Virus record (IMG/VR): IMGVR_UViG_3300037852_000224 | Span: 1 to 58,934 of that record | DNA: 58,934 nt | DNA from: a virus | Strand: one strand, 5' to 3' | In this document: positions 24,977 to 57,650 of the stretch, piece by piece | Numbering within the stretch: position 1 is the first letter of the stretch | How the letters are laid out: every line of letters starts with the position of its first letter | Made by a program: the position numbers and the translations under genes | The notes under the pieces: model-generated | Seen by the model: only the letters and a program-made list of their open reading frames with translations | Told to the model about the DNA's origin: nothing | Databases searched by the model: none

Positions 24977-25882
24977 TTATGGTATCAGGCTTAAAACGTC
25001 GAAACGGATAACGCTGTTGACTTTGTACGTAATTCCCGGCGAGGGAAAGAAATTAAGCGGATTATTGGCCGCGTTGACGTAATGGCACAGACGATTGCAA
25101 TTGACCGGGCCGTTCGACCGTGCCCGCCAATTGTTGTCGTAAAGTACCATTTGGAACTCCGGGTGGTTGGGGTCCTGTGAATTGGTCACTCCACCGGCAT
25201 TGGTGAAAGTGTATTCAATACGGCGGAGTTCAAAATCATTGTCCTGAATCGGGATGGTGAATTGGACTGGGCTACCTGGGCCTGTGGCGGTGGCGTCGGT
25301 GTTGAGAGTGAATGTGATGGAATAGGAGAAGTCCTCTTCCTTATACGCGTAGTCGCTGGGGGCAGGGTCAGAGACGGCGCTCATTTCACGACGAACCCCG
25401 TAGAAGGCCAGTTGCGACACTGGGGTGACAGCGGTCAAGTCCAGTGCCAACTGCACATTGGATAAGTCGAAGCGGAGAGCGGAGTTAAGGGGGAATTCCT
25501 TCTCCGGCAGTACCGCAGTGTTGGTGTTGGAATTGGAAAACACACTCACCGGCACGTCGAAAAACAACCGTGTGGATGCGTCGTAGATTTGAATCTTTCC
25601 CCAGGTGGATACCGCCCCGGCGCCGGACAGTGTGGAACTTGCCCCGCCCCATGCGCGGAGTACAAACCCACCATCCTGAATCTCAATGGGGATGTAAGCG
25701 TAGGATTGACCGTTGATTAATCCCTTCTGTCCTGGGTTGTAAACGTAGACGTAGAAATAATCTCCATACCCTTCCGGCGTTTTGTAATCGTACATCCCCG
25801 CGCTCCTTTTCACCGTTGCGTCCGAGAATGCGCATGGAATCCTCCGCACCCCCTTGAATATCAATGTGGCTGTGGCGGCCAT
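24977..25882 (-). CDS. Tandem-duplicated (double) jelly-roll-like protein; capsid candidate
   Basis: 301 aa made of two homologous halves. Half 1 (about 8-150) and half 2 (about 160-301) share F-[KY]-GVRR, DYxYK, [YF]xIPIxxQDxxFxLR, a xIYD/xLYD turn and NSxxRFD[LV]S in the same order. Each half also resembles the one-domain protein 25883-26296. Two fused beta barrels is the architecture of double jelly-roll capsid proteins; whether this is the true major capsid cannot be decided from sequence. Starts directly at the upstream stop (TAAATG), so it is coupled to its one-domain relative. Confidence 0.7.
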   Translation of the reverse strand: MAATATLIFKGVRRIPCAFSDATVKRSAGMYDYKTPEGYGDYFYVYVYNPGQKGLINGQSYAYIPIEIQDGGFVLRAWGGASSTLSGAGAVSTWGKIQIYDASTRLFFDVPVSVFSNSNTNTAVLPEKEFPLNSALRFDLSNVQLALDLTAVTPVSQLAFYGVRREMSAVSDPAPSDYAYKEEDFSYSITFTLNTDATATGPGSPVQFTIPIQDNDFELRRIEYTFTNAGGVTNSQDPNHPEFQMVLYDNNWRARSNGPVNCNRLCHYVNAANNPLNFFPSPGITYKVNSVIRFDVLSLIP

Positions 25883-26296
25883 TTAGTATTTGTACCGGTT
25901 CGCTCCCAGGAATAGGATCTGCCCGCTGTTGGCGGCGCCACTTAGGTCTTGGATGTCGATGGTGATTCTCCCTCCGGCTGGGTACCACACTTCAGGGAAG
26001 TAGGGGTAGGGGTCGCCAGCGGAATTGGGCATGCACAGGGAGTTAATCAGCCCCGCGCTTAAAGCATATTGCTGACCATCGTAGAGACGGATTTGGAATC
26101 CCCCGGTGGAGGTGAACAATAAGCCACGGAACATAAAATCCGCGTCGGTCTGGATGCTCAATGTGTTGCCCAGGGATAGTTGATTGGATGTAAGTGAGAA
26201 AGAAAATGGGTAGCCGTAGGCCACGTCCAGATAGCCGGACGGAACGTTCGTGGGCATCGTGCCCTGGATGGCGGCGGGGGAAATCGGGTTGGTCAT
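25883..26296 (-). CDS. Single jelly-roll-like protein; capsid/penton candidate
   Basis: 137 aa. Pattern IQTDADFMFRGLLFTSTGGFQIRLYDG, then LC, YPYFPEVWYPAGGRITIDIQDLSG and a closing strand GQILFLGANRYKY. It matches the second half of the two-domain neighbour (IQDNDFELRR..GG..FQMVLYD..LC..FFPSPG..IRFDV). GAGGAG ribosome site and a 241-bp untranslated leader with hairpins suggest strong, separately controlled expression. In PRD1-like viruses a single-barrel protein forms the penton; that comparison is inference. Confidence 0.65.
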   Translation of the reverse strand: MTNPISPAAIQGTMPTNVPSGYLDVAYGYPFSFSLTSNQLSLGNTLSIQTDADFMFRGLLFTSTGGFQIRLYDGQQYALSAGLINSLCMPNSAGDPYPYFPEVWYPAGGRITIDIQDLSGAANSGQILFLGANRYKY

Positions 26297-26537: not shown

Positions 26538-27215
26538 TTACTGGACGCCGCGAGCGTGCAGACCGTCGAGCAGCATGCGCAGAGTGGCGCCGGTGCCACC
26601 ACTGCCAGAGGCCGCGAGTACCGCCGCCGACCCGACCAATTGACCGAAGAACGACGCTTGGTTGTCGATCACGATGTTAATGGCGAGTTCATGCCGGTGT
26701 CCCTTGGCCGGTAGGCCGTTGGAATAAGCCGAAGTGGCGGAGGCAGTGGAGAATCCTGCGATTCCGGTACCGGAATTGTAGAACGGCACGGGTCCACGGT
26801 TGTAATACTTCTGGCCGATCCACAGTTCCAGTTCGAACGAAGTGGAGATCAGGATCGCGTCGGCAAGCAGAATGTTCGGCCACCAGTCGAAATTGATGCC
26901 CATAACGGCGAACGCTTCCGGCGCGTCCAATCGCTTGGGTGACGTTACGTTGGTGTACGCCAGATTCTTCGCGGCGGCGCTGCCACCAATCGGCGTGAGG
27001 TTCGCCGTCGGGTTGGTGAAGAATTGCGTGTTGTTCGCAACGGTTCCAGCGGCGGCGGTCTGTACGGTGTCGTACAAAGGCTCGTGCTGAACGTCCATTG
27101 CGTTAGCTTGGAACGTTGTGCCATTGAATTGGCTGTAGATCCACGCTTGTTGTTCGGAACTGATTTGCCCACCCGCAGACATCATCTGGGGAGTGGCGGT
27201 TGCACCTGCGGACAT
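26538..27215 (-). CDS. Major virion protein candidate
   Basis: 225 aa from ATG 27215 (AAGGAG upstream). The segment FAVMGINFDWWPNILLADAILISTSFELELWIGQKYYNRGPVPFYNSG is followed by a Gly/Ala/Ser loop, then GHRHELAINIVIDNQASFFGQL, a beta-rich pattern. Hairpins flank the gene on both sides (27256-27294 upstream, 26439-26478 downstream), as for a highly expressed structural gene. Major capsid, minor capsid or spike cannot be distinguished by eye. Confidence 0.6.
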   Translation of the reverse strand: MSAGATATPQMMSAGGQISSEQQAWIYSQFNGTTFQANAMDVQHEPLYDTVQTAAAGTVANNTQFFTNPTANLTPIGGSAAAKNLAYTNVTSPKRLDAPEAFAVMGINFDWWPNILLADAILISTSFELELWIGQKYYNRGPVPFYNSGTGIAGFSTASATSAYSNGLPAKGHRHELAINIVIDNQASFFGQLVGSAAVLAASGSGGTGATLRMLLDGLHARGVQ

Positions 27216-27333: not shown

Positions 27334-28359
27334 TTACCGCCGCATCCCGAACGCGCCACGGAACGCTCCGACGCCGGACGGTGGGGTCTTGCTCACCGGA
27401 GCCAGCATCATCGGCATTCCCGCTTTAATGGGGTTCTGCGGGACAACAAAACTCCCCGCCATGATATCCCCCATACCGGACAATGCAAGCGCGTTGGTCA
27501 GCGATGGAGGAGCGATGATGGTCAGGATCTGACTGGCCGCCTGCGCCAGCCCGCCCAACATTACTGCATCCCCAAACGGTTCACCAACAAATTTGCGCCC
27601 TGCCCACCCGGCGGCAAACGCCCCGCCGACGGTGATGGCCACTCCCATCCACGGACTCCCCCCGCCGAGACTGGTGATACTCGCCGGAAGCAATGTGGGT
27701 AAGTACTTGGTCGCAGCCACGCCGATGAGAATCCCACCGGTCATGGTCAACAGGTCTTTGCCCGAGCTGCGCCCAAAAATCGACGGGTTGCGATGACGCA
27801 TGGTGTAACGCCGGTGGGAATTATGCCGACGCCGACGATGCCTCACTACTCCCGTGTTGTGCCGACGATACCGGCGGCGGCGGTGAACCGGGGGGTTGTG
27901 CGCCACTCGGGTACGCCGACGATGCATTGTGTATCTCCGCCTGCGCCGGGGAACCGCAGCACGCGTGTTACGGCGGCGGCGGCGGATACTGGTCTTACGT
28001 TTACGTGCTGCCACTGACTTTGTTCTCCTTTTTCTTGGATTGATCGCGCCCAGTTCGATGAGGATCGGATTGGGCCGTACTGCGGCACGACGGCGGCGAG
28101 TGTATCGCTTACGTCGTGAATGCACAGGACGGGAGGTAGGGTTGGCCCGTACTCCCCGCTTGCGCAATTCCTTTTTCAATTGCTTGACCGAATACCGCTT
28201 GATGACGGCGCCTGTACGCCGACGGTGGGCGGTGCGCTTACCATGGGATGATGCGTTCCGCTTTAGGAATCTTCCCTTGGAGTTACGTTTTAACGAGAAT
28301 CGTTTGCGACCGGCGCGGCGTGGATTCGAGATCCGGCGGACCAGTCTGACAGTTGCCAT
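27334..28359 (-). CDS. Arginine-rich (protamine-like) protein fused to a membrane domain
   Basis: 341 aa. Residues 1-195 are extremely basic, with runs such as RRRRRYTMHRRRTR and repeated RxNP elements. Residues about 205-300 are hydrophobic: LLTMTGGILIGVAATKYL, MGVAITVGGAFAAGWAG, AVMLGGLAQAASQIL. The end carries SGMGDIMAGSFVVPQNPI, shared with other virion candidates. A DNA-condensing tail on a membrane protein could tie the packaged genome to a virion membrane; the idea is inference. Good ribosome site AAGGAG. Confidence 0.75.
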   Translation of the reverse strand: MATVRLVRRISNPRRAGRKRFSLKRNSKGRFLKRNASSHGKRTAHRRRTGAVIKRYSVKQLKKELRKRGVRANPTSRPVHSRRKRYTRRRRAAVRPNPILIELGAINPRKRRTKSVAARKRKTSIRRRRRNTRAAVPRRRRRYTMHRRRTRVAHNPPVHRRRRYRRHNTGVVRHRRRRHNSHRRYTMRHRNPSIFGRSSGKDLLTMTGGILIGVAATKYLPTLLPASITSLGGGSPWMGVAITVGGAFAAGWAGRKFVGEPFGDAVMLGGLAQAASQILTIIAPPSLTNALALSGMGDIMAGSFVVPQNPIKAGMPMMLAPVSKTPPSGVGAFRGAFGMRR

Positions 28360-28803: not shown

Positions 28804-30351
28804 CTATACCGCCGCTGGACATGCAAACACAGGGACAATGTCCTCGTCCTTTGCGTCCATTCGTGGTAGCTTCGGAGCCTTGGATGGTGGAGCAGGGACA
28901 GTGGCAGTGTTAAACTTCACTCCCCCCGCAGGCAAAGTTAAAATGTCACGTAACTTTAAGTGTGGAACGGCCACACGGCGGTCCACGTAAATCTGGAATC
29001 CCTTGTCGATGGCACGGGAGCAGAAGGATACGTCTTCACCGCTGAAATCGAATCCCCCGCCGTCCACGCCGGTGTCGGTTCGAATTAACGGTGAGAACGC
29101 CAATGGGGTCATGGCTTCAAGTAAACTGCGGCGGAACAGTACAACCGGGAATCCCGTGTAATCCACCCGGTGGAAATCGGCACATTCCGGCCCCAGGAAT
29201 TCTTCCTCTGGGATAGGGATGGTGGTATTGTCGTTGGCCAATGCCCCACACGATATCTTCCGCTCCGTATGGACGAACGGCGTGCCGATTAACGTCCACC
29301 CGGCGACCATCGCGGCGTGTGGAGCGTACTCCAGGTCGGTAATCAATTGCAGGACGTTGGCCAGTGTGACGAGGTTGTCATCGTCAATCGACAACATGTA
29401 GTCCACCGGGGGAGTAATCGCCAGCGCCTCCCGTGCCGCGACGATTCGCGTCTGATACACATTGGAGGAATTGAACTGGATGACGATGGCGTGATGATAT
29501 TGGCCAATGGTGGAGATTAACGTGGTCCATGCGTTCACCCATGCGGCACTAAACGTCTCCCCGGAGACACACAGAGCGATCCTTCGCCGTGGGATAGGGG
29601 CAGTGGTGGCGATAGCGGTATGGGTGGCTATGTCCACTTCCTTAAACCCGTTTGCCCGCCGCGCCATGAACAACTGCTGCCCTAGATTGTACGCCGTCTG
29701 CCGATTCTGCGCCGCGTAGGCGCCATCCATCTGCACGGTGGAGTCGAAGTAGGGGTGACGATGGGGGAACAGGATGGAGCGATCCATCCGCACGATGACG
29801 CATTCCCCGTTCGATTCGTCCTGTATTGCGTGCTCACAGAGGTCGTTGTCGGAGTACATGGATTCGTACCCTGGATAGAGGAGGTATCCAAGGGAGTGGT
29901 AACGCTCACGAGAGACGATGGGCATAGGCATGATGCGGCGTTCCACTTCATGTGGAGTTCCTGTGTTGACCCAGACAACGAATCGGGACTCATCCCCGGC
30001 CTGTGAAGTAATCGCCTGCTCCATCAGCGTGTCCCAATGCAGGGCTGGGTACTGGTCGTCGGCGTTGACAATGAACACATCGCCAGTAGCGTACTTGGCG
30101 GCGAGGTTGACACCGTCCACGTAGCACTTGCGTTCTGTGTTCCAGACCAATTTATCCTTGTGTCCGCCAAATCTCTCCAGATCCATGAAACCGTTGGGCC
30201 ATTCCTCTTCCTTTTCCGTAAACCCCCATCTCTTATCCGCGCACAACACGTACTCCACGTTAGATGGATTGTCCGCCGCCGCAATCCACGCGTTGTATAC
30301 TTCCTTCCACTTCCCCGGTCGTGCACTGGTGTGTAAAATGCTAAACGTCAT
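28804..30351 (-). CDS. Two-domain glycosyltransferase
   Basis: 515 aa. Domain 1 (about 1-240): TFSILHTSARPGKWKEVYNAW, FIVNADDQYPALHWD. Domain 2 (about 250-500): RRIALCVSGETFS, YMLSIDDDNLVTLANVLQLI (DxD), AAMVAGWTLIG, FDFSGEDVSFCSRAIDKGF. Both look like GT-A folds. An enzyme inside the virion-gene block suggests glycosylation of virion proteins or cell-surface sugars; the sugar is unknown. ATGA-coupled to the Cys-rich gene upstream. Confidence 0.8.
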   Translation of the reverse strand: MTFSILHTSARPGKWKEVYNAWIAAADNPSNVEYVLCADKRWGFTEKEEEWPNGFMDLERFGGHKDKLVWNTERKCYVDGVNLAAKYATGDVFIVNADDQYPALHWDTLMEQAITSQAGDESRFVVWVNTGTPHEVERRIMPMPIVSRERYHSLGYLLYPGYESMYSDNDLCEHAIQDESNGECVIVRMDRSILFPHRHPYFDSTVQMDGAYAAQNRQTAYNLGQQLFMARRANGFKEVDIATHTAIATTAPIPRRRIALCVSGETFSAAWVNAWTTLISTIGQYHHAIVIQFNSSNVYQTRIVAAREALAITPPVDYMLSIDDDNLVTLANVLQLITDLEYAPHAAMVAGWTLIGTPFVHTERKISCGALANDNTTIPIPEEEFLGPECADFHRVDYTGFPVVLFRRSLLEAMTPLAFSPLIRTDTGVDGGGFDFSGEDVSFCSRAIDKGFQIYVDRRVAVPHLKLRDILTLPAGGVKFNTATVPAPPSKAPKLPRMDAKDEDIVPVFACPAAV

Positions 30352-30721: not shown

Positions 30722-32626
30722 TCAATCTTCAATCCCCGGACTCGTTTCCAACACCGGCAGGGAGATAAAATACACCCCCCCGTCCAAATACAATTGCTGA
30801 TTCCTAATGTCGTACCGCAATTGCGGCATGGTCCCGCCGGAATCCTCACTGAAGGAGTGGATGTACTGTGTTGGTTGGAACTTGTCGAAGTCCTTTTCCG
30901 TCTCGTACGCGATGCACACCACATCACCGACGATGTACGATTCCTTATCCTTCTCCTCACCCGTCGCCTGAAACACACTCAGGTCTAATTCCTGATCCCC
31001 ACCGTCGAGGAATAGTTGTTTCCCATTCTCCGTGGACGTGAGCATGCAATCTTCCGTGGACTGGTCGGCTTTGACGAATCCCCCGTCCCGTTTGTCGTTC
31101 CACTTGTAATCCCGTGGGATGTGGCCCTTCCATTCGTAGCCTGACAGGCCGATGACGATTCGCCCTACCGTGGGGGAATCGACAATGAGACCGCAGCATA
31201 CCGCGAGTCCACCGACATTCTCGTGGTAGTGGAAGTCTTTTTCGATAACGATGGTGGAGGTGGAGGGCTTACCGTGGAATTTTGCGTAAAGATCGTTGGC
31301 GGTGGATTCAGGATTGGACTTCATTGGCTTACCCACTCGGCCACTAGCAAGTACCGCTCTATTCTCCGGTGTGTCATCAACAAAATAGAGATTGGACTTA
31401 GAGCCGAGGGAAACAGGCCCATACCACTTAACTCCCGACACCATCTTTTTCAGTCTTCCAGCTTGACTATGGGAGGATACCTGCACCAACAATTTGCCAT
31501 CCCGCTTTGCCCTTTCCTTGGCGTGTTTAGTAAGTGTGTAAGATGGATTCCGCCGGAGCGGCCCAAATCCTTTCGGCAATCTCGACATGCCCGGCCCGGC
31601 CCGCCGTTCCACCTCAATCCTCAATTCCGTTTGCTTCCGATGCAGCTCTTTCATCCGCCTTGCCAATGGATCGTCCAACTTAAAGGTCTCGGAAGGACGT
31701 TCATTCCCCCGTCCTGCATCGATCATTTCCCGAGTTAACTTACTACTCTGCACGTCCAGCTTGTCCAGTGCCTTGTTAATCTGCCCAGCGGTCATACTGT
31801 GGATATCGGGATTGTGTTTGCCCGCAAGCTTACTCCCCACCCTCCCCAACTGCCGATCCAAATACCTCCCCACGGATTTCCCAGTCTGAGTAATGCCGGA
31901 GACGGTGGATTCAATGGGGCCGGGATTACCCTGATACGGCGTCAGCCTTCCAGACGACAGGGCACGTTCAGGCCCAAGCGTTTCGTGCAATCGCTGCCAG
32001 TCTCCAAACTTATTCCCATCCGGTCCCTTCCCAGGTTTGAATCCAGGGTGGCGGAAGGACGGACGGATATACCACTTTTTTCCACGCTTCTGGAACAGAG
32101 AGCCATAAGCGGCATCGATATAAACCGGGCTGTTACTGTTGGGATTCGACGCCACAAATCTTTTCGCCTCCGCCAGCGATTCAAACCGGGATTCCTTGTC
32201 AATCGCCGGAATTATATATTCATCTCCCACCCGATCAATCTTGTACCCCTTAAACCGCACACTCCCGCCAGCCTCCACCTTCTCCGGGCCGGTCTTTTTC
32301 ACATACTCCCTATGCTCATCCCTCACTCCCTTTTCATACGCCGACCGCAGCTTGTTCACCAAACTGGAATGGTGCGTATCCCGTTCGCTCTGCGGCAGTC
32401 TGCGGTACCAATCCTCAAACCCTCCGGTGTCCCTCATCCCACCCTGCCCACGGTAGCCGTCGTCATACGCTTGTTGCAGATACCGGGATGAGAACGTGAC
32501 GGTGGGACGGGCAGTCTTACCACTACCCTTGGCCTTACCTTTGGCCTTGGATTTTGACTTGGACCCACCAAACCCAAAAAGGTTCGATTTCGCCTTTCTC
32601 CTCCGGGATGTTGCCGTTGCCGCCAT
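30722..32626 (-). CDS. Large basic virion-region protein
   Basis: 634 aa. N-terminus about 1-40 is Lys/Ser/Gly-rich (SKSKSKAKGKAKGSGKT); the first 430 residues are basic and helical with RNP/NP elements (GPLRRNPSYTLTKHAKERAKRDGKLL); the last 200 are acidic and beta-rich. No P-loop: GSGKT lies in low-complexity sequence. The start has no ribosome site; instead the palindrome stands 6 nt upstream. Role unknown. Confidence 0.7.
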   Translation of the reverse strand: MAATATSRRRKAKSNLFGFGGSKSKSKAKGKAKGSGKTARPTVTFSSRYLQQAYDDGYRGQGGMRDTGGFEDWYRRLPQSERDTHHSSLVNKLRSAYEKGVRDEHREYVKKTGPEKVEAGGSVRFKGYKIDRVGDEYIIPAIDKESRFESLAEAKRFVASNPNSNSPVYIDAAYGSLFQKRGKKWYIRPSFRHPGFKPGKGPDGNKFGDWQRLHETLGPERALSSGRLTPYQGNPGPIESTVSGITQTGKSVGRYLDRQLGRVGSKLAGKHNPDIHSMTAGQINKALDKLDVQSSKLTREMIDAGRGNERPSETFKLDDPLARRMKELHRKQTELRIEVERRAGPGMSRLPKGFGPLRRNPSYTLTKHAKERAKRDGKLLVQVSSHSQAGRLKKMVSGVKWYGPVSLGSKSNLYFVDDTPENRAVLASGRVGKPMKSNPESTANDLYAKFHGKPSTSTIVIEKDFHYHENVGGLAVCCGLIVDSPTVGRIVIGLSGYEWKGHIPRDYKWNDKRDGGFVKADQSTEDCMLTSTENGKQLFLDGGDQELDLSVFQATGEEKDKESYIVGDVVCIAYETEKDFDKFQPTQYIHSFSEDSGGTMPQLRYDIRNQQLYLDGGVYFISLPVLETSPGIED

Positions 32627-32649: not shown

Positions 32650-33156
32650 CTACGACCGGTACGCCCGGTACGCGCTACGGGCACGGCTGACACGGGATGG
32701 ACCAGTAGACCCCGACAGGAAAAAGAACAGTACCGCCGCTCCCAGTAAATACCCATATACCGGGATGCCCATAATCGTGTCGGACAACGCGGTGGAATAA
32801 TTCCCCGCGCCTAAATCCGTGGTGAATTGAGTCCAATCCGTTGTCAGCGTCCCCATCCCACCGTGGCCGCCACATCCTCCGCCACATCCACACCCACCGC
32901 CACATCCCCCCACCTTGCTCCCGTTCAACTGCCCAGGGGTGGTGGACTGTTGCCCAATTAATTTCACCCGACCGGAGGTGTAATCCTTAATCGGGTTCTG
33001 TGGTACGGCGAATGCCGCTGGGAGGATGTCGCCGATCCCAGGGGTGTAGGTGATTCCAGACAAGCCGACATCGATGGGGTTCTGTGGGACGGCGAACCAC
33101 CCCGCGAGTAGATCGCCTAATCCCGGTGCCGGATGAATGCTAAGATTGCCAGCCAT
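32650..33156 (-). CDS. Tail-anchored virion candidate with two VPQNPI motifs
   Basis: 168 aa from ATG 33156 (AAAGGAAA upstream). Two copies of G-[LI]-GD-[LI]-L-x4-F-AVPQNPI occur in residues 12-55. Then a Cys/Gly-rich run (GGCGGGCGCGGGCGGHGG) likely binds metal, and a C-terminal span VYGYLLGAAVLFFFLSG is followed by an Arg-rich tail (SRVSRARSAYRAYR). Probable small virion membrane protein. Confidence 0.7.
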   Translation of the reverse strand: MAGNLSIHPAPGLGDLLAGWFAVPQNPIDVGLSGITYTPGIGDILPAAFAVPQNPIKDYTSGRVKLIGQQSTTPGQLNGSKVGGCGGGCGCGGGCGGHGGMGTLTTDWTQFTTDLGAGNYSTALSDTIMGIPVYGYLLGAAVLFFFLSGSTGPSRVSRARSAYRAYRS

Positions 33157-33181
33157 GTTCAATTTCCTTTCCGTTTCCGTT

Positions 33182-33502
33182 TCATTTCTTGATAACTGCG
33201 ATGAGCACCAACCCACCGAGAAGTAAGCCAATTAACGTGCCGCAACTCACACCGGCATAAGTGGAACACACATCCGGTAAGCCGACCGCTCCGGGGTTGG
33301 CAGCGAGACACGCCATTTCACTGGCGGAGCAAGTGGTGGTGGCTGGGTTGCCGCCGATGAGTGGAATGGCGCTGTACACCACCGTGGACAGACTGGAGCA
33401 GTGGACTTCTCCAGGATCGTGCGTGGCGTCATAACACGTACCTCCCGGCGGGATGCCGGTTTGGCCGAGACCAGACAGTGCAGGGAGTGTGGCGAGTGTC
33501 AT
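33182..33502 (-). CDS. Tail-anchored small protein
   Basis: 106 aa. Begins MTLATLPALSGLGQT (recurrent motif), has a middle with six Cys (CYDATHDPGEVHCSS, CSASEMACLA, VCSTYAGVSC) and a C-terminal span TLIGLLLGGLVLIAVIKK. Start follows the upstream stop directly (TAGATG). Virion membrane protein by analogy with its neighbours. Confidence 0.7.
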   Translation of the reverse strand: MTLATLPALSGLGQTGIPPGGTCYDATHDPGEVHCSSLSTVVYSAIPLIGGNPATTTCSASEMACLAANPGAVGLPDVCSTYAGVSCGTLIGLLLGGLVLIAVIKK

Positions 33503-33985
33503 CTACTTTTTACCTGCCGACAGGATGATGAATGCGCCGCCTAGGACCAGTAACACCGGGAGGACGGATGGAGACGGCGATGTAACGCCGGGGCTGGAGG
33601 CCGCCGCGTTCAATTGAGCAGTGTAGGGACTCACTGTACTGTCGCCACCCACCGGCATTTGATTGTTCAACGCATCCAAGGCATTGGCGGAATAGGTGTC
33701 TAGGTTGACCGCCGGTCCAGTAGTGGAAACGTACGGCATGACCAGACTGGTATCCACCGGCGAGACCGGCTGGACGAATGCCGGTTGATACGCCATGGTC
33801 TGCCCCAGGTTGGCCCGCCGAGTTAGTGTATACCCCGCCCCTGTGCCGGAATCGCCTCCGGTGTCGTAGGGGAACGATAGTGCCGTCTGTCCCAATCCAC
33901 GCACCGTTCCAATCCCCACGCCACGATTCGCGATGGGGGAAGTTTGCACGCCACACCTTACGGCTTGATTGAGGATGTTGTTCAC
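33503..33985 (-). CDS. Tail-anchored small protein
   Basis: 160 aa from GTG 33985, which overlaps the upstream stop as GTGA; the longer open frame upstream is a shadow. Motif GTVRGLGQT near residue 30, a Ser/Thr/Pro middle, and a C-terminal span VLPVLLVLGGAFIILSAGKK. Confidence 0.7.
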   Translation of the reverse strand: MNNILNQAVRCGVQTSPIANRGVGIGTVRGLGQTALSFPYDTGGDSGTGAGYTLTRRANLGQTMAYQPAFVQPVSPVDTSLVMPYVSTTGPAVNLDTYSANALDALNNQMPVGGDSTVSPYTAQLNAAASSPGVTSPSPSVLPVLLVLGGAFIILSAGKK

Positions 33986-34377
33986 TTTCCACCTCCACCG
34001 CTGAATAGGAATAGAGCAAGACCACCGAGGATGAGCAATACACCAGGGGATAGGAACGATGCCGGAGCCGCCACCACTGGCGTGCTCACTACCGCCGCCA
34101 TTGTGCCAGGGGATACAGCATACACACCGACCGTGCCGGGGACACATTGATTTTGGCTTGCATCCATTTCATACCCACTGGGACATGCGCACGGCGTGTA
34201 ACCAGTAAGGTTCACATTCAACGGACACGCTGGAGTCCCCGGTGGGATGACGCCAATACAATTCCCCGACCCTTGTGGATCGCACACGGTTCCAGGAGGA
34301 CACACGATGAGATCCCCGGTTAACTGGTCGGTGCAGGTTGCCGCCTGCCCCATACCACGGCGGGATGTAGTGGCCAT
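33982..34377 (-). CDS. Tail-anchored cysteine-containing protein
   Basis: 131 aa from ATG 34377. Motif TSRRGMGQA at the N-terminus, then a Cys-rich segment (CTDQLTGDLIVCPPGTVCDPQGSGNC, PCACPSG) like small EGF/disulfide repeats, and a C-terminal span VLLILGGLALFLFSGGGGK. Confidence 0.7.
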   Translation of the reverse strand: MATTSRRGMGQAATCTDQLTGDLIVCPPGTVCDPQGSGNCIGVIPPGTPACPLNVNLTGYTPCACPSGYEMDASQNQCVPGTVGVYAVSPGTMAAVVSTPVVAAPASFLSPGVLLILGGLALFLFSGGGGK

Positions 34378-34389
34378 CGTCACAGTGGA

Positions 34390-34551
34390 TTACTGTTCCT
34401 TCTTACCTTTCCCGCCGAATAGGCCCAGCAACAGTACTCCTGCACTGGTGAGCCAGAACCACGTGATGTCGGGGCAGGATTGTTGCCCGCCGATTTGGTA
34501 CGATGGCCGACCGGCGCAAGTGGGTTTGGTGGACCACCCAAGACACATCAT
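34390..34551 (-). CDS. Very small tail-anchored protein
   Basis: 53 aa (MMCLGWSTKPTCAGRP...). Three Cys in the first 26 residues, then a single C-terminal span (WFWLTSAGVLLLGLFGG) and a KGKKEQ tail. AAGGAG stands 8 nt upstream of ATG 34551, good support for a real gene. Belongs with the surrounding array of single-span virion candidates. Confidence 0.7.
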   Translation of the reverse strand: MMCLGWSTKPTCAGRPSYQIGGQQSCPDITWFWLTSAGVLLLGLFGGKGKKEQ

Positions 34552-34590
34552 TGTCGAATCTCCTTATTCATGTTCGATGTTCATCGATGC

Positions 34591-35226
34591 TCAATTGACC
34601 ATAGACTTTCGGAACGGCCCACGGAATCCACCACTAAACCCCTTGCCGCCGCCGAAGGATGGAAGGTTGGGGAGGTCAACGATATTGCCCATCCCTTGCA
34701 GTCCACTCCCTTGAGGATTGATGGTAAAATTCAGGCTCACTGGTTGGGCTTGCCCAACCTGCCATGTCTCCTGCCATACCCCGACATCGGTAGAGTCCCA
34801 AGACCCCGTAATTATCTTTTGTCCGTTGGCGTCGGTCGTGCCGAATTGGCTGCTGGATACAGCTCCACCGTTGAAACTTGCGGTGCCGGTCACAGGTTGA
34901 TTCGGCGGTCCTTTGACGATGAGTTGGAAAGAGTCGCCAGCGGCATACACGCCGGTCGCACCAGTGGACACGTCATTCAACTGTACTGTGGTGGCAGCAG
35001 GGAGAGACACTGTGCCGGTTGCGCCAGCGGCGGGGGCGGTAGTGACCGGAGCGGCTACTGCGGGAGTGGTTGTGCCACCGAACCATTGCTGCCAATATGT
35101 CGGCCCAACCTGTACCCCAGTGGCGCTGAACGCCGCACCGTTGGGTCCGTAATTGTTGAGATACCAGTACAGTAAGTAGCCGCCACCAGCCACCAACGCC
35201 AAAGTCATCAAGTCGTCTTTTTTCAT
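34591..35226 (-). CDS. N-anchored beta-rich protein
   Basis: 211 aa. Unlike its neighbours the span is N-terminal (LMTLALVAGGGYLLYWYL). An Ala/Pro/Thr linker leads to an Ig-like beta domain (FQLIVKGPPNQPVTGTASFNG, DVGVWQETWQVG, VSLNFTINPQG); the end carries LQGMGNIVDLP and a Gly/Phe/Arg tail. Good ribosome site AAAGGGAAT. Confidence 0.7.
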   Translation of the reverse strand: MKKDDLMTLALVAGGGYLLYWYLNNYGPNGAAFSATGVQVGPTYWQQWFGGTTTPAVAAPVTTAPAAGATGTVSLPAATTVQLNDVSTGATGVYAAGDSFQLIVKGPPNQPVTGTASFNGGAVSSSQFGTTDANGQKIITGSWDSTDVGVWQETWQVGQAQPVSLNFTINPQGSGLQGMGNIVDLPNLPSFGGGKGFSGGFRGPFRKSMVN

Positions 35227-35240
35227 ATTCCCTTTGCCTC

Positions 35241-35681
35241 TTACCGTTTATTCCTGCCGCCACTGGTCACCAACAACGCCAACGCACCGAGACCCAATAG
35301 TGCGAGGAGTGGATTGTCGTTCACCCAACTGGACATCACATCCGCGCAAGGTTGAGCGATCACAGCGGGAGTGGTGTCTATAATCGACGGCATCCTCGCT
35401 GCCATCCCCGGCACCGTCACCACTGGCATCGGTGCCACCACAGCGGCAGTGTTGACCATCGACGGCATAGTAGCGAGTGCCGCCGATTGTGATTTCGGTG
35501 TGCACCCTGGGATGCGGCTTTGATACGGAACACACTGCGGGTCGTCGCACACTTTAGCCCCGACGTATCCAGCGAGACTACAGGCTTGGATCGTAGCCGG
35601 ATCGGTCGGCACTCCACATTGCGCCATGAGGCACACAGTGGGATCTACACCGGAGGGAGTGGACAATTGGCCTAGTCTCAT
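35241..35681 (-). CDS. Tail-anchored protein, paralogue A
   Basis: 146 aa from ATG 35681 (ATGA overlap; ATG 35699 is possible). Begins MRLGQLSTPSG, has Cys-rich and MPSI/MPSM elements, then a C-terminal module WVNDNPLLALLGLGALALLV with a basic end. The same module closes the next gene, so the two are paralogues. Confidence 0.7.
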   Translation of the reverse strand: MRLGQLSTPSGVDPTVCLMAQCGVPTDPATIQACSLAGYVGAKVCDDPQCVPYQSRIPGCTPKSQSAALATMPSMVNTAAVVAPMPVVTVPGMAARMPSIIDTTPAVIAQPCADVMSSWVNDNPLLALLGLGALALLVTSGGRNKR

Positions 35682-36211
35682 CGCCGTGCCACCAGCCATG
35701 CCAACGCCGCCAGCCCCGCGAGTGCAAGCAGGGGATTGTCATTGATCCATTGCGCCATGGGATTCCCACATCCACCAATCACCATCGTGTTGGGTTGCAC
35801 AATGGACGGCATGCGTTGGCGTAAGTCATACGGCCCCGGTCCAGGTGCGGCACCATAACCATAGCCACCATCGGGTCCATAACTCCCTCCAGGACCATAG
35901 CCGCCGGATGGGCCATTGCCTGTGTCCGTGATCGACGGCATCCCAGCGGTGGTTGCCGATGGCATGGGTACAGTGGACGCCGATGGCACAGGACTACCGG
36001 TTCCAGTTGGCGCCGCCGATGTGGTGACCAAAGGATTGGCGGTGGAGGCTATATTCACCGGTATGGCTTGCCCGGCCTGTCCAGGGTTGTAGTAGCTGGC
36101 TCCACCACTCAATGAGTAAAGAGTACTGAGGAACAATGGAGCGGACGGTGAGTAATCCGGCGCGTTCTGCAACTGCGCCGCTACGATATCGCCCATGCTC
36201 AATTTCGCCAT
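35678..36211 (-). CDS. Tail-anchored protein, paralogue B
   Basis: 177 aa from ATG 36211 (GGAAGG about 9 nt upstream). Starts MAKLSMGDIVAAQLQ, then Pro/Ser/Thr sequence, a Tyr/Gly/Pro-rich stretch (GYGPGGSYGPDGGYGYG), RMPSIVQPN and the module WINDNPLLALAGLAALAWLVARR shared with paralogue A. Confidence 0.7.
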   Translation of the reverse strand: MAKLSMGDIVAAQLQNAPDYSPSAPLFLSTLYSLSGGASYYNPGQAGQAIPVNIASTANPLVTTSAAPTGTGSPVPSASTVPMPSATTAGMPSITDTGNGPSGGYGPGGSYGPDGGYGYGAAPGPGPYDLRQRMPSIVQPNTMVIGGCGNPMAQWINDNPLLALAGLAALAWLVARR

Positions 36212-36216
36212 GTGGA

Positions 36217-37017
36217 TTACGCCTTCCCCAGCAGGAACAATCCCGCCGCCGCTGCCGCAAGGATTATCCAATTAGCCTGCAACCATTGCGTGATCTCGTC
36301 CGGCGCCACGGTGGATTGTGTCTGCTGCGTCCCACCCACTGGTTGCGTCCCACTACCGGATTGATTGGTTGCGTTATTAATCTGCGCCTGTGTCGGCGTG
36401 GCCGGGGCGGTCGGGGCGTTTGTCACCAGTGCATTAGCTGTCGGTGCACCAGTAGTGATGCTCACCGGCGGGCCGTACTGTATCGCGGCTTGCGACGGCA
36501 TGTTCTGCGGCGACGTGTTGGGGTTGACCACAATCGGCCCGTAGTAATCCCCACTCGCCGCGTTCGCCGCTTCCGTCGCCCACACCGACGCTGGGAATCC
36601 GCCGAAGAAAGATTGCAATTGCGAGATGTACGGAGCCAACGCAGCGGGCAGATTATTACACGCCGCATCCGGTGGGCATCCAATCAATCCAACATCCTGA
36701 TTCACCACGGCGCAATACTGTTGCGCAATCGCCATGGCCTGCTGCTGCGCCGCTTCACTGGGGGAGCCGCATGGCGCACCGCCACCAGGGCCACACCCTA
36801 CCGCCGCGTCCGTTTGTGGTTCCGCCGACAACGATGCCATCCACTGTTGCATGTATCCATCGAAATTGGATTCTGGACATCCCGCCGGGGCTTGACCTAA
36901 TCGTCCCAACCCCCGCATTCCCGGATAACCAGCACGCCGACGATACGCATACGCCCGTGCGGCGCCGGGAGGGATCGGGGTCATCGGTCCTGTTGACTGG
37001 CGGGATGCAAGCACCAT
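36217..37017 (-). CDS. Tail-anchored protein
   Basis: 266 aa. Basic N-terminus with GMRGLGRLGQAPAG near 35, a helical Gln/Ala-rich middle with Cys pairs, a Thr/Ala/Pro linker, and a C-terminal span QWLQANWIILAAAAAGLFLLGKA. AGGAG 7 nt before ATG. It resembles the paralogues 35241 and 35678 in the WLxANW/WxNDNP-type anchor. Confidence 0.7.
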   Translation of the reverse strand: MVLASRQSTGPMTPIPPGAARAYAYRRRAGYPGMRGLGRLGQAPAGCPESNFDGYMQQWMASLSAEPQTDAAVGCGPGGGAPCGSPSEAAQQQAMAIAQQYCAVVNQDVGLIGCPPDAACNNLPAALAPYISQLQSFFGGFPASVWATEAANAASGDYYGPIVVNPNTSPQNMPSQAAIQYGPPVSITTGAPTANALVTNAPTAPATPTQAQINNATNQSGSGTQPVGGTQQTQSTVAPDEITQWLQANWIILAAAAAGLFLLGKA

Positions 37018-37029
37018 AAGGATTCTCCT

Positions 37030-37914
37030 TTAACCTTCCATCATCAGTACCGCCGCCAGCACCAACCCGATAATCAATGGAACCGGCAGACCACTTTGTG
37101 TCCCTCCGGCCACTGTCCCGCCGCTACCAACTGTCGTGTTTGCATTAACGCCACTGCCCGTTGCAACTGTATACGCAGTTCCCGTGTCCGTTCCAGTTCC
37201 CGTTGCACTGTTCGTTGTATCCGCTGCTCCTGCCACTGGGTCCGGCACAACTGTAGGGTCGTTGGCGATGGGGTCGTGGTATCCAATGAACCAGTTCCAA
37301 CAGGCTGGTCCACTTCCATTTGTTCCGGGGTAGACATACGACCAATTCCCTCCCAGGTTCTGTTGCCATCCACCAGGACTAGTCTTGTAATGACATGCTC
37401 CCGCCTGCCGGTCGGCAATACAGTTAACTCCCGCTTGGCCAAGGGCGGATTGTCCACATGCGGCAAGCACGGCCTGCCATGCCGTGTTGAAATTGTTTAG
37501 TGCCGCTTGTTGTAGAGAGTAATAGTGGACCGGAGCGGCAAGGTAATTGTCGAGATTCTGTTGCAGGATGGGTTCGGCTTGATTGACGTAACTGGTAGCT
37601 TCAGTACAAGTCTGCCCACAGCCGGAGAACACTTGATACAACGCTGCACCTAGAGCGATGGCCCCGGTGATTGCCAGCCCGATTGGTCCCGCGATAGATG
37701 TTCCTGCCGCGATAGCGGAGAGGGAACCGAGGATGCCTACTGTGACGGATGCACCAGCGGCGGCGATCTTGGAGGCGTCACCAGCGACGGTTTGGCCGAG
37801 ACCGGATAATCGTGGCGTGCGTCGGGGACGAAATTGTACGCGGGATTGCGGCAGGGTGCTCAACGCTGGGTACGCGTAGGTGGAGGAGGCGAATTGGCGT
37901 TGGGCGTAATTCAC
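37030..37914 (-). CDS. Tail-anchored protein with internal hydrophobic hairpin
   Basis: 294 aa from GTG 37914 (GTGA overlap). Basic N-terminus with RRTPRLSGLGQT near 30-40, then a glycine-rich hydrophobic stretch (ITVGILGSLSAIAAGTSIAGPIGLAITGAIALGAALY type, about 50-90), a helical domain with several Cys, a Thr/Gly/Val linker and a C-terminal span LPVPLIIGLVLAAVLM. Likely virion membrane protein, perhaps membrane-active. Confidence 0.7.
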   Translation of the reverse strand: MNYAQRQFASSTYAYPALSTLPQSRVQFRPRRTPRLSGLGQTVAGDASKIAAAGASVTVGILGSLSAIAAGTSIAGPIGLAITGAIALGAALYQVFSGCGQTCTEATSYVNQAEPILQQNLDNYLAAPVHYYSLQQAALNNFNTAWQAVLAACGQSALGQAGVNCIADRQAGACHYKTSPGGWQQNLGGNWSYVYPGTNGSGPACWNWFIGYHDPIANDPTVVPDPVAGAADTTNSATGTGTDTGTAYTVATGSGVNANTTVGSGGTVAGGTQSGLPVPLIIGLVLAAVLMMEG

Positions 37915-38339
37915 TTGCCTTGCAGTTGCTTCCTTTTCTTTATAGCCTGTGACTTTGTTGCGTAAGGACCGGCCACGATGGTAGGAGCTTTCTTTGGTCC
38001 CGTCTCCACTACCCATCCATGTCCAGCGAACGCGATGCGTAAAGGTTCAGGATTGCGGATGTGCCGTGGGTTGACGAACACCCTCACCGTCCCATCCCTA
38101 CTAATCTTCACCTTCGCCGGGATCATCCCACCGGGATTCCCCCGCGCCAACTTACGACCGGAACGCACTGGGTTCTTTGCCCGCTTCCACATTCCGTGAA
38201 TCTTCTTAAGCCGTTTCTGTAGAGCTTTTGTGTAGGCCGACGTTCTGCCACCAGATTTGCTGTCGGCATGCTGGGACTTTTCCAAATCCTTGTACGCCTG
38301 ATTGAGCATCAATCCTAGTTGGTGTTTTGTATCAGCCAT
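37911..38339 (-). CDS. Basic DNA-binding-like protein
   Basis: 142 aa, strongly basic (KALQKRLKKIHGMWKRAKNPVRSGRKLARGNPGG) with NPxHIRNPEP elements like those of the arginine-rich protein 27334-28359. No membrane span. A nucleic-acid-binding virion or core protein is inferred. Confidence 0.65.
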   Translation of the reverse strand: MADTKHQLGLMLNQAYKDLEKSQHADSKSGGRTSAYTKALQKRLKKIHGMWKRAKNPVRSGRKLARGNPGGMIPAKVKISRDGTVRVFVNPRHIRNPEPLRIAFAGHGWVVETGPKKAPTIVAGPYATKSQAIKKRKQLQGK

Positions 38340-38347
38340 GAGCTTGC

Positions 38348-39058
38348 CTACTTCCCCCGCCCCATAAACAAAAACAGCAACACTGCCCCACCAATCAACA
38401 GCACCGCCGGATTCGCCACTCCACTCACCGCCCCTGCCACTCCCGCCGTCGCCGCACTCGCCGGACTCCCATAAATAAGAGTGGACCCATTCGCCAGCTT
38501 CAACGCCGCCCCACCCTGCGCCACTGCCAGCACACTGGCCAACTGCTGTCCACTTTGATTAATCACCTGTGCCCACTGATACCCGGCTGGAGGTTGTGGC
38601 GGCTGCACTCCGGGAGGGTAACTTAATTGCCCGTTGTACCCAGGGGGCTGTGTTTGCGCCACGGTACCCTGTGGAAACGACAGACTGTACCCACTCGTTC
38701 CCGGTTGCGGCATCGACACTGTCAAATCCGGATTACTCAGCGTTAACGACGCCGCGTTCAAATCCGCCTGACTCAAATCCTGGTTCGCCAAATCCACCGA
38801 ATCCGCATTCGCCAAACATGCCACGTCCGACGGGTCACACACCTGTCCCATCCCCAGTCCATGCAACGCCGCCACCCGCCGCAATTGTCCTACCCCACTG
38901 GTCCCCGTGGACCGCCGCAACCTCACTCCCACCACGGGATTGGAATTCGCCATATACAACCCCGGCACAATGGGATTCTGCGGGACGATGAATGCACCCT
39001 TAGTAATATCCCCCAGTCCCACTTTCCCGCCACCGGTACTCGGCACCGTTAAATTCAT
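38348..39058 (-). CDS. Tail-anchored protein with VPQNPI and GLGMGQ motifs
   Basis: 236 aa from ATG 39058 (ATGA overlap). Near the start GLGDITKGAFIVPQNPI, then RRVAALHGLGMGQVCDPSDVACL, a pentapeptide-like Asn/Asp/Ala/Leu stretch (VDLANQDLSQADLNAASLTL), a Pro/Gly/Gln region and a C-terminal span VLLIGGAVLLFLFMGRGK. It carries both recurrent motifs, linking the two groups. Confidence 0.72.
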   Translation of the reverse strand: MNLTVPSTGGGKVGLGDITKGAFIVPQNPIVPGLYMANSNPVVGVRLRRSTGTSGVGQLRRVAALHGLGMGQVCDPSDVACLANADSVDLANQDLSQADLNAASLTLSNPDLTVSMPQPGTSGYSLSFPQGTVAQTQPPGYNGQLSYPPGVQPPQPPAGYQWAQVINQSGQQLASVLAVAQGGAALKLANGSTLIYGSPASAATAGVAGAVSGVANPAVLLIGGAVLLFLFMGRGK

Positions 39059-39786
39059 GCGATCCACCCCCATTTCTTGCCTGTCCACCACACGCCCATA
39101 GCCACCAGCGTGTACCCGATGGCTCCCACCATCCACTCCAGTCCACCGGCGATCCCACCGCTAATCCCCCACTCCGTTTTGCGCCTTACCTCTACCGCTT
39201 GTTCCGCTTCCCATCCTGGAGCCGACCCGTGGGATGCATCCAACGGGATGCGTATACTTGTGCCGTCTATATGTGGATACGCCGCAACGTACACATGAGA
39301 GTACTGGTACGGGGCGGTGGCGTCGGCTGCGACAGTGACAAACGCACAGGGAATGCCAACCGCCTCCAGCAATGCGGCAAGGTACATGGAATAGTCGTCG
39401 CAATCGCCAACGCTCAATCCCAACTCTACGTACCGTTTCATATCCAACGGTCGGATGATGACTTCAATCACATCATCAGGATTGATTCCAGTGCCCGCTA
39501 ACCGTGCCGCGTTCAATTCATCCCGTTCAAACCGGAGGGAGCCTTTGGTATGTGCATAAGCATTGGCCACCTGTTCCAGTTGTGTGCCGTTACCGCAGAC
39601 TCCCCCTGCCCACTGTTGAAACTCTGGTGCCTGTGCATCCTCACTCACCCTCTGCCGCATCAATCCAATGGTCTGCCCCACTTGTGCATCCGGCCACGCC
39701 CCTAGTTCCCTCACTGAGAATCGCACCGCGCCCAGTCGATCATGCGTTGCCGTGGCCGCCGTGGCTTTGTCGATGTGCATTCGCAT
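39055..39786 (-). CDS. Membrane-anchored transglutaminase/papain-like protein
   Basis: 243 aa. Core GDCDDYSMYLAALLEAVGIPC (Cys129), QYSHVYVAAY (His164) and IPLDASHG (Asp183) form the Cys-His-Asp triad of the transglutaminase-like superfamily, which includes proteases and crosslinking enzymes. A C-terminal span lies at about 212-236 (LEWMVGAIGYTLVAMGVWW). First gene of the leftward virion operon; the palindrome lies 8 nt upstream and no ribosome site is visible. It may mature or crosslink virion proteins. Confidence 0.8.
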   Translation of the reverse strand: MRMHIDKATAATATHDRLGAVRFSVRELGAWPDAQVGQTIGLMRQRVSEDAQAPEFQQWAGGVCGNGTQLEQVANAYAHTKGSLRFERDELNAARLAGTGINPDDVIEVIIRPLDMKRYVELGLSVGDCDDYSMYLAALLEAVGIPCAFVTVAADATAPYQYSHVYVAAYPHIDGTSIRIPLDASHGSAPGWEAEQAVEVRRKTEWGISGGIAGGLEWMVGAIGYTLVAMGVWWTGKKWGWIA

Positions 39787-39807: not shown

Positions 39808-39997
39808 ATCCATGGTGAATGTTTAATGGAGTGGTTCGCGTGCATTATGCCGCGTTGGAAACCCCGCCGCAACGGTGTTGGTGGTTGGTATATGTGGCGG
39901 TTGAACGCCGATTGCCAAAGGTAAGCGCTTGACTTATCAGTTGGATGGGCCATACAATAATTTCGACCCGCAAAATCATCCACAGGGAGGCGTAAAA

Positions 39998-41872
39998 GTG
40001 GCAGATGAAGAGGCTGGAGTGTTGCTGGAGGGGCTGGAGGGAGAGGGGAATGAGGAGGGCAACGTAGAAAGCGGCACTGAGAGTGCTATTGAGGTCATTC
40101 CAGAGGTATCGGATGGTGTAAAGGAGATTAGAGGCCCTGGAAGGCCACGGAATGTGGCCGGATCGGCCCCACTGAAGAAATTACGCTTTCCCAACCCGCG
40201 ATTCCGGCAGTACAATTCGGATTCGGATGTGAGGGAGCAGCGGCCTAACTATGCTTTCAAGTGGGTGGCGGCATTGCCACAGGTGTTTAAGGACCGGTGT
40301 GACTGGTTCATATACCGGCGGCATCCGATTCTAGTGGAACCTCCGTTGGACGCCGACAGGAAACCACAGTGGTACAAGTACATTGACAAAATCCCCGGTG
40401 CGGACCCGAATCCAATTACGGATGAATCGGATCTGCTCAATCGGTTCGGGTGTGGTAGATACGAATTGTATTTGAATGAAACGGACGTGCCTAAAGGGGA
40501 TGAGGCCAGGACGATCCTTAGGGTGTTCGTGCAGAATCTCGGTGGGGGGGATTATCGCGCTCATCCGCCGAACGATCCGTTGATTAGCGATGTGAATAAG
40601 GTGGACTTGAGCCACCCGAACAATAAGGGGTATCTTTCGTACCTCATGAGCATTGGGAAACTACCAGAGCAGGTTAACGCGGAAAAGGAGAGACAGGACG
40701 TGGCTACGGCAACTGTGGTGGATAAGTTGACTGACGGGTACGAGAAGATGGCGGACAAGGTGGTGAAGATGGCCGAGAGCCGGTCGTCGCGGCCTGATCC
40801 AGTGGCGGCCCCGGCAGGGTACGACTCCAACGCCATCGCGGGACTGTTGAATTCGACTGGTGAAGTGATGAAGCAATCCGCCATGACCGTGATGGAGCAG
40901 AGCAAAGGCATGGGACTAGATGAAGTGTTGAAGGTGGCGAAGGAATTGAAAGCCGACGACACACATTCGACCAGTGAGATTAAAGAACTGCGGAATATGT
41001 TGTTTACGATGCAAACCGAACGCATCAATAAGTTGGAAACGATGTTGATCGAGCAGGCTACGACGAGGACGGCAAATCCAAGCTCAACGTCCAGTGACGG
41101 TCCACCTCCCTCTCCCGCCGATCCCTTCTCCTATTTCAAATCCGGCATTAGCGCACTGAAGGAAATGAAATCCACCATTGACGATTTCTCCGGCGGCGGG
41201 GAAGGGGACGGTGGAACGGGAGTGGGCAAGAACGCGCCGTGGTGGGCGGGGTTATTGGCCGCGAGTATGCCGCACGTGGCCACGATTGCGCAGACTGTCA
41301 TGGGACTGTACATTGCGTCACAACGTGCGGGGCAACCGGGAGCACAACAGCAACCGATGGGACCGGCACCTATGCCGCAAGGGTTCCCTGGAATGCCAAT
41401 GCAACCACAACCACAACCAGCCCAAGCACCGGCACCTACCATGGCTCTGAATCCAGCTCCAGCACCGGCGGGGGCCACTCCCAGTGGTATGCCTCCCCCT
41501 GCCCCTGCCTCCGGCGCCGGTGGATTCGACATGGGGCAGTTTATCTCCCTCATCCAAGTCCCTCTGCTCAATTACCTCAGTGATCCCACGGCCAACGGGG
41601 ATCATTTCGCAGAGTGGCTGGTCGGCGGGTATGGGTTGGATGTGTTTAAGCAGGTGAAACAGTACGGTCCCCTGGTGGCTCCGATATTGATGGAGCACAC
41701 GATTCAATTGCCCACTGGCCCGGTGAAACCGTTTGCCGATCTATCTCCCGGCAGGTTGGATAAGTTTGTGCAGGAGTTCTTGAGCGTTACGCCGGAGGAC
41801 TTTGAGAAGGACCCGGTGGATGGTGGTGGTGGTGGAGACGATAACGGCGGTGGAACGAACGGAGCGGCGTGA
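39998..41872 (+). CDS. Large rightward protein of unknown function
   Basis: 624 aa from GTG 39998 with AGGGAGG 7 nt upstream; the frame is open to TTG 39929. Order: acidic start; an AT-hook-like GPGRPRN near 50; a conserved-looking domain (FKDRCDWFIYRRHPILVEPPL, RFGCGRYELYLNE); a coiled-coil region (TDGYEKMADKVVKMAE, about 230-360); Pro/Gln/Ala-rich linker; a C-terminal domain. GGTGVGKN near 420 is not a Walker A. Divergent from the virion operon. A scaffold, core or DNA-binding virion protein is possible. Confidence 0.7.
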   Translation: MADEEAGVLLEGLEGEGNEEGNVESGTESAIEVIPEVSDGVKEIRGPGRPRNVAGSAPLKKLRFPNPRFRQYNSDSDVREQRPNYAFKWVAALPQVFKDRCDWFIYRRHPILVEPPLDADRKPQWYKYIDKIPGADPNPITDESDLLNRFGCGRYELYLNETDVPKGDEARTILRVFVQNLGGGDYRAHPPNDPLISDVNKVDLSHPNNKGYLSYLMSIGKLPEQVNAEKERQDVATATVVDKLTDGYEKMADKVVKMAESRSSRPDPVAAPAGYDSNAIAGLLNSTGEVMKQSAMTVMEQSKGMGLDEVLKVAKELKADDTHSTSEIKELRNMLFTMQTERINKLETMLIEQATTRTANPSSTSSDGPPPSPADPFSYFKSGISALKEMKSTIDDFSGGGEGDGGTGVGKNAPWWAGLLAASMPHVATIAQTVMGLYIASQRAGQPGAQQQPMGPAPMPQGFPGMPMQPQPQPAQAPAPTMALNPAPAPAGATPSGMPPPAPASGAGGFDMGQFISLIQVPLLNYLSDPTANGDHFAEWLVGGYGLDVFKQVKQYGPLVAPILMEHTIQLPTGPVKPFADLSPGRLDKFVQEFLSVTPEDFEKDPVDGGGGGDDNGGGTNGAA

Positions 41873-56531: not shown

Positions 56532-56532
56532 G

Positions 56533-57600: not shown

Positions 57601-57650
57601 GTAGGGTTTATCCTTCCTGTTTTCTCTTCTCAGGGTCCATTTCCGCCCCC

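Follow-up and report, generated by a model that had tools for sequence, protein, structure and literature searches.

An array of tail-anchored proteins as the probable virion-membrane module of uncharted, apparently tailless soil phages related to SSIP-1

Why would a virus devote some 7 kb of its genome to a run of small proteins, most of which end in a membrane anchor? The question is raised by positions 32650-39786 of the IMG/VR virus record IMGVR_UViG_3300037852_000224 (58,934 bp; hereafter the window, meaning the whole stretch of DNA that was analysed), where an array of tail-anchored proteins is headed by a transglutaminase-like cysteine enzyme (39055-39786, minus strand). The initial annotation, which saw in this density of anchors an oddity for a tailed phage, offered two explanations: a virion membrane or an envelope-modifying machine. 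Our analysis indicates that the array very probably encodes the virion membrane proteins of a tailless phage whose particles contain an internal membrane, and that the window most likely represents a large group of tailless soil phages that had not been charted before and has the cultured Salisaeta icosahedral phage 1 (SSIP-1) as a relative.

The ten C-anchored proteins initially listed in these 7 kb all exist: their genes, named below by their first coordinate, lie on the minus strand and each encodes a C-terminal hydrophobic span (17-residue Kyte-Doolittle mean of 1.78-2.61). Several of the longest open reading frames (ORFs) begin too far upstream, and the coordinates given below reflect likelier starts. 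Their description as having one hydrophobic span and a few basic residues holds for most of them, the tail after the anchor being 2-8 residues long in nine of the ten (32650 has a basic tail of 21 residues) and positively charged (+1 to +5) in nine, but not for 37030, which ends in EG and has an extra internal span. With anchors counted only when the span lies no more than 12 residues from the C-terminus, they occur in 9/13 array genes vs 2/60 of the remaining window genes (Fisher p = 3.6e-7), one of these two being the lytic transglycosylase 16898; 32650, with its long tail, and the enzyme gene, with its weaker span, are C-anchored outside this count. This enrichment is not due to chance; when residues are shuffled, a comparable anchor arises in 0-20% of the shuffles, depending on the protein. 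The same layout recurs in nine records (window included), whose arrays together hold 73 C-anchored ORFs.

The leading enzyme, for which both a transglutaminase-like and a papain-like nature had been suggested, belongs to the transglutaminase-like superfamily, since it has the Cys-His-Asp triad (Cys129, His164 and Asp183, all conserved) and exceeds the Pfam cut-off for Transglut_core (24.2 bits for a cut-off of 23); the papain-like part of the suggestion found no support. Its supposed C-terminal anchor is weak in the window (mean of 1.44) but is retained by most relatives. Homologues also occur in Geoglobus acetivorans pleomorphic virus 1 (BK065156, 7809-8081) and in a 4.5-kb phage record (MT839222, 428-928).

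It is this enzyme that connects the array to a known virus. SSIP-1, which was described in 2012, is an icosahedral phage that contains a membrane and has a 44-kb circular double-stranded DNA (dsDNA) genome, a T=49 capsid and capsid proteins of two types (PMC6356626, PMC6260650); it was said in a 2019 review to have hardly any similarity to GenBank sequences (PMC6356626). The link was first revealed only by the enzyme of a 12.5-kb circular relative of the window (see below), which matched SSIP-1 gp34, a protein annotated as structural in the GenBank record. Profiles of the window enzyme family match gp34 with E-values of 1e-17 to 8.8e-24 (75.1 bits vs at most 8.1 bits for decoys), and the catalytic residues are kept. 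Furthermore, gp34 ends in an anchor, is followed by five other C-anchored proteins (ORF35, 36, 39, 41 and 42) and then by a large protein, gp44, the capsid-sized gp45 and gp46, and gp47, which places small C-anchored proteins between enzyme and capsid genes, as in the window. The two genomes also resemble each other in being circular (dsDNA in SSIP-1), in having no tailed-phage annotation, in encoding proteins of capsid size (about 210 amino acids in SSIP-1) and a probable two-domain beta protein, and in carrying a C-anchored, lysozyme-like protein (ORF54 in SSIP-1, which looks lysozyme-like by eye; 16898 in the window). SSIP-1 differs by its size (43.8 kb, whereas contigs of the window group reach 58-63 kb), by its host (Salisaeta, as opposed to the Acidobacteriota that harbour proviruses of the window group) and at the position of the capsid genes, which is held by gp45 plus gp46 in SSIP-1 and by one 26538-type gene plus the 25883/24977 family in the window. 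The window lineage very probably has its virion gene plan in common with SSIP-1 and, because an anchored structural homologue heads a similar anchored run before the capsid genes in that phage, a virion membrane is well supported for the window from its genes.

The genome itself conforms to this picture. Its ends are identical over 127 bp, as expected for a circular sequence (a circular genome of tens of kb being a hallmark of SSIP-1-like phages), and the window is a complete circular virus genome of about 58.8 kb, presumably of dsDNA; four other records likewise have identical ends, of 97-127 bp over the five. With the enzyme and a 228-amino-acid protein as queries, about 30 related viral contigs were identified, some of them of 57-63 kb. 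Parts of the module are kept by these approximately 30 viral contigs and by several Acidobacteriota proviruses, and the better-covered ones keep all of it in a conserved order: enzyme, anchored proteins, large Asn-Pro protein (30722-32626), basic Asn-Pro protein (27334-28359), 228-amino-acid protein (26538-27215) and a second beta-domain family (24977-25882 and 25883-26296), beyond which lie further structural and fibre-like genes. All these window genes are on the minus strand, as are two conserved structural-region genes that follow (24373-24963 and 23698-24363).

Within this order, the 228-amino-acid protein 26538 is the candidate major capsid protein. Its AlphaFold2 model, built from 24 sequences (predicted local distance difference test score, pLDDT, of 78.8), resembles C1q-type domains in the PDB together with the capsid proteins of Sulfolobus polyhedral virus 1 (SPV1), SH1 and HCIV-1, all three of them archaeal viruses that have a membrane inside the particle. 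Among solved capsid structures, SPV1 VP4 matches best (probability of 0.99, template-modelling (TM) score of 0.40/0.49, E-value of 0.014). As the E-values are modest (0.003-0.04), the single jelly roll is only a predicted fold, and placing 26538 among the vertical single jelly-roll capsid proteins of Helvetiavirae/Singelaviria or Portogloboviridae would be tentative. No relevant match emerged when PDB sequences were searched with the capsid and enzyme profiles. The neighbouring second beta-domain family, probably of minor capsid proteins, has a single-copy member (25883) and a two-copy member (24977), for which a confident two-domain beta model was obtained (pLDDT of 83.8) that is without clear solved match; a PRD1-type double jelly roll was considered for 24977 and is unsupported, since there are two beta domains but the matches to PRD1 P3 have TM-scores near 0.1. 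Across relatives, proteins of this family contain one, two or more copies of the domain, and the copies often end in G.RR.PC.

Could the window nevertheless be a tailed phage, as the initial annotation implied? No terminase, portal, HK97/tailed-phage capsid or tail family was seen among the 73 window proteins in a family scan (first 25 of 58 families listed, the main proteins being also scanned individually), and those of the listed matches that bear tailed-phage labels are lysozyme or transglycosylase domains. In 19 related records searched with a terminase profile, no convincing terminase emerged, the one match being weak (12 bits) and lying within a helicase gene. An assignment to the Caudoviricetes is therefore rejected and the tailed-phage frame was wrong, but the accompanying suggestion of a virion membrane has gained support from the SSIP-1 homology and gene order, from the predicted jelly-roll capsid gene nearby and from this very lack of tailed-phage genes.

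Several points weigh against an internal virion membrane. Only the enzyme matches SSIP-1 significantly, the matches of the capsid, second beta-domain and large-protein families being at best marginal (E-values of 0.007-0.29, bits near those of decoys), also in profile comparisons that covered gp44-gp47: 25883 to gp47 (E-value of 0.007), 30722 to the C-terminus of gp43 (0.014) and 26538 to gp46, its best SSIP-1 match (0.29; 0.097 over 133 columns by hhalign, with a probability under 1%). Several of the best of these fall at the expected gene position, and as sequence matches they are suggestive. The Foldseek matches are weak (E-values above 0.002, TM-scores up to 0.49 for a capsid protein), and the window has no recognisable packaging ATPase, the FtsK-HerA type that marks Bamfordvirae and most tailless dsDNA phages (PF01935) being absent from it and found in five of 19 records. 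The topology of the anchored proteins is ambiguous, because their basic C-tails would place the C-terminal end in the cytoplasm and the absence of signal peptides would place the N-terminal domain there too. Finally, an enveloped pleomorphic virus has an enzyme homologue. The HerA-like ATPase found in relatives (L035:1069-2610 and L070:17026-18087) is encoded on the strand opposite to the structural genes; it was considered as the packaging motor of the lineage, and set aside since only those five of 19 records carry it.

The homologue in Geoglobus acetivorans pleomorphic virus 1, together with a packaging ATPase that is not universal, gives some substance to the best surviving alternative, which is that the virion is enveloped or pleomorphic, so that its membrane would be the outer layer and the anchored proteins would belong to the envelope instead of lying in a membrane beneath the capsid. 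We consider this improbable, as the capsid candidate is predicted to be a jelly roll, the gene order is that of the icosahedral SSIP-1 and the window genome is far larger than the 13-kb record of the pleomorphic virus. Less probable still, to the point of being a slim chance, is a machine outside the virion, serving to remodel or protect the envelope of the host (by lysis, exclusion or secretion), the envelope-modifying option of the initial annotation, which is unsupported for the array: other window genes do touch envelopes (PAP2 phosphatase, glycosyltransferases, PIG-L deacetylase), but SSIP-1 gp34 is annotated as a virion structural protein and the array sits between enzyme and capsid genes even in reduced relatives.

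If the array belongs to an internal virion membrane, what might hold its parts together? A short motif, G[L/M]G, is found 58 times in the ectodomains of the anchored array proteins, for 16.8 expected (maximum of 28 in 300 shuffles), and most often continues with D or Q; in SSIP-1 alone the excess is weak (five vs 1.9 expected, with 19/500 shuffles reaching as many). A long form, GLGD..F.VPQNPI (GxGD[IL]..G.F.VPQNPI), is present in relatives too; in the window, the basic protein 27334 and 38348 each contain one copy and 32650 contains two. That a presumed DNA-binding protein and membrane proteins have a motif in common fits docking to a common partner, and G[L/M]G[D/Q] and GLGD..F.VPQNPI may act as docking or processing signals, which might explain how membrane, capsid and DNA core hold together. 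We propose that the anchored proteins would (i) insert into the host cytoplasmic membrane and mark the patch destined to become the virion membrane, and (ii) connect the jelly-roll shell both with the membrane and with the DNA coated by the basic protein, possibly bridging shell and membrane like the sub-capsomer proteins of SPV1 (PMC8459092). At entry, the anchored transglycosylase could open the cell wall and 37030 could breach the host membrane.

For the enzyme, we tentatively favour a role in maturation, in which it would be carried in the virion and would cleave or cross-link the anchored proteins. A somewhat less likely possibility is a virion-borne hydrolase that acts at entry alongside the anchored transglycosylase and cuts cell-wall peptide cross-links. 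Archaeal pseudomurein is cut by known endopeptidases of the transglutaminase fold, and the window does encode an SLT enzyme that is C-anchored and likewise has the G[L/M]G motif, but the transglutaminase-like enzyme heads the array wherever the array end was read, whereas transglycosylases were found in only some members, and no cell-wall-binding domain was seen. That it is a structural protein in which catalysis no longer matters, as its SSIP-1 homologue being listed as structural could suggest, is very unlikely given that an alignment of 12 very divergent sequences shows no variation at Cys and His and almost none at Asp. A bolder and rather unlikely extension of the maturation role would be that SSIP-1, the Acidobacteriota proviruses, the 12.5-kb element and the 58-63-kb phages form one deep membrane-phage lineage, defined by a virion-borne anchored transglutaminase-like protease that processes a dozen tail-anchored proteins at the shared G[L/M]G[D/Q] signal, much as the maturation proteases of adenovirus and large eukaryotic DNA viruses do, although with an unrelated enzyme.

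Which hosts do these phages infect? To our knowledge, few phages of Acidobacteriota are known, and that phylum is provided as host by proviruses lying within long chromosomal contigs. Profile searches of 396 sampled Acidobacteriota genomes gave two matches, one of them the seed, and six came from 397 genomes of the order to which the second match belongs. In one provirus (L089-L092, at about 73-100 kb of G281:C10), the module occupies a region of roughly 27 kb in a 150-kb Acidobacteriota contig, flanked by a MiaB-like radical-SAM gene on one side and by a MacB/FtsX permease gene and truB on the other; two further Acidobacteriota proviruses are carried by contigs 497 and 337 kb long. These proviruses retain the C-anchored proteins and the enzyme. 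Among 398 genomes sampled from the phylum of a Methylophilaceae match there were again two matches, one of them the seed; the other (L112, G1002:C85) is the repeated 12.5-kb circular unit, which encodes a Rep protein, a capsid candidate, a basic protein, C-anchored proteins and the enzyme. Its Rep resembles that of NO16-like Vibrio phages, a likeness limited to replication and to this one distant relative. Nothing was found by tblastn with the window enzyme and capsid candidate in 50,697 phage records, or with the capsid candidate of a relative in 72,556 plasmids, and neither SSIP-1 gp46 nor the capsid protein of the 12.5-kb element brought up additional relatives when used to scan the viral contigs. 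A diverse new branch of phages that contain a membrane emerges around the orphan isolate SSIP-1, with a conserved candidate capsid protein, an enzyme that can serve as a marker for finding more members, and genomes of up to 63 kb that exceed those of the other membrane-containing phages named here.

Among these, SPV1 (Portogloboviridae) is similar in its circular dsDNA, single jelly-roll capsid proteins and inner lipid layer, features predicted for the window from its genes and models, and it has sub-capsomer proteins that bridge membrane and capsid, a nucleoprotein core and a glycosyltransferase gene (PMC8459092). It differs by its 20-kb genome and archaeal host, by the lack of significant sequence similarity found to the window, the structural match being weak, and by a transglutaminase-like enzyme not being mentioned in its International Committee on Taxonomy of Viruses (ICTV) profile. 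PRD1 and other Tectiviridae are also tailless, with an internal membrane and phage-encoded membrane proteins for assembly and DNA delivery (PMC6356626), but have a double jelly-roll capsid protein, a packaging ATPase and a 15-kb linear genome, none of which is shown in the window. Sphaerolipoviridae (SH1, HCIV-1), to which the structural matches are weak, are tailless with a protein-rich internal membrane and two capsid protein types (PMC12643093), but have a 30-kb linear genome with terminal proteins.

The individual array genes, all on the minus strand, are diverse. Next to the enzyme, 38348-39061 (start approximate) encodes a tail-anchored protein with its single long motif, a GLGMGQ and the C-tail RGK, and 37911-38339 a small Asn-Pro-containing protein that has no membrane span; other Asn-Pro-rich proteins adjoin the enzyme in relatives. 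The most widely conserved array protein (13 loci) is 37030-38016, with a C-terminal anchor, an SGLGQ motif and, as its extra span, a glycine-rich hydrophobic segment in its interior (residues 108-124 when counted on the longest ORF), features compatible with a possible membrane-penetrating protein; an analogous protein is present in the G281 provirus. A relative has a sub-threshold match to the pore-forming HlyE (E-value of 0.0036). The tail-anchored 36217-37017 has the motif RGLGRLGQ and the C-tail KA. The tail-anchored products of 35678-36211 and 35241-35699 (the latter Cys-containing), initially called clear paralogues, are so in their C-terminal anchor module MPSI...NDNPLLAL (29 aligned residues, 48% identity, E-value of 2e-6, followed by a similar anchor), but their N-terminal parts do not align. 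The product of 34591-35226 is anchored at its N-terminus, as had been proposed, by a span (MKKDDLMTLALVAGGGYLLYWYLNN) that is kept in relatives, and the tail-anchored 53-residue product of 34390-34551 has a homologue at the equivalent place in one of them (L004, 15640-15822). Tail anchors also end the Cys-rich 33982-34383 (RRGMGQ), 33503-33985 (RGLGQ, start uncertain) and the Cys-containing 33182-33502 (SGLGQ), while the anchored 32650-33156 combines its two long motifs with a Gly-Cys cluster and the 21-residue basic C-tail.

As for genes outside the array, the large Asn-Pro protein 30722, which closes it, has a C-terminal domain that is widespread in the lineage. The very basic 27334, with Asn-Pro repeats, hydrophobic segments and a long motif of the GMGD..F.VPQNPI type, is a candidate link between nucleoprotein and membrane. 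The SLT lytic transglycosylase 16898-17560 (minus strand) has an RGLGQ motif and a C-terminal anchor, and the divergent conserved gene adjoining the enzyme (39929-41872, plus strand) belongs to no known family. The window also encodes a family A polymerase, two helicases, ThyX, an integrase, ParB and a uracil-DNA glycosylase, as well as a PAP2 phosphatase and glycosyltransferases. Glycan or lipid modification may be carried out by the glycosyltransferase, methyltransferase, PIG-L deacetylase and PAP2 phosphatase genes at 28804-30351, 55863-58427 and 9387-9923. Uracil-DNA glycosylase and 3'-5' exonuclease are separate in the window (52120-53205 and 54233-54772), whereas several relatives match both within one ORF.

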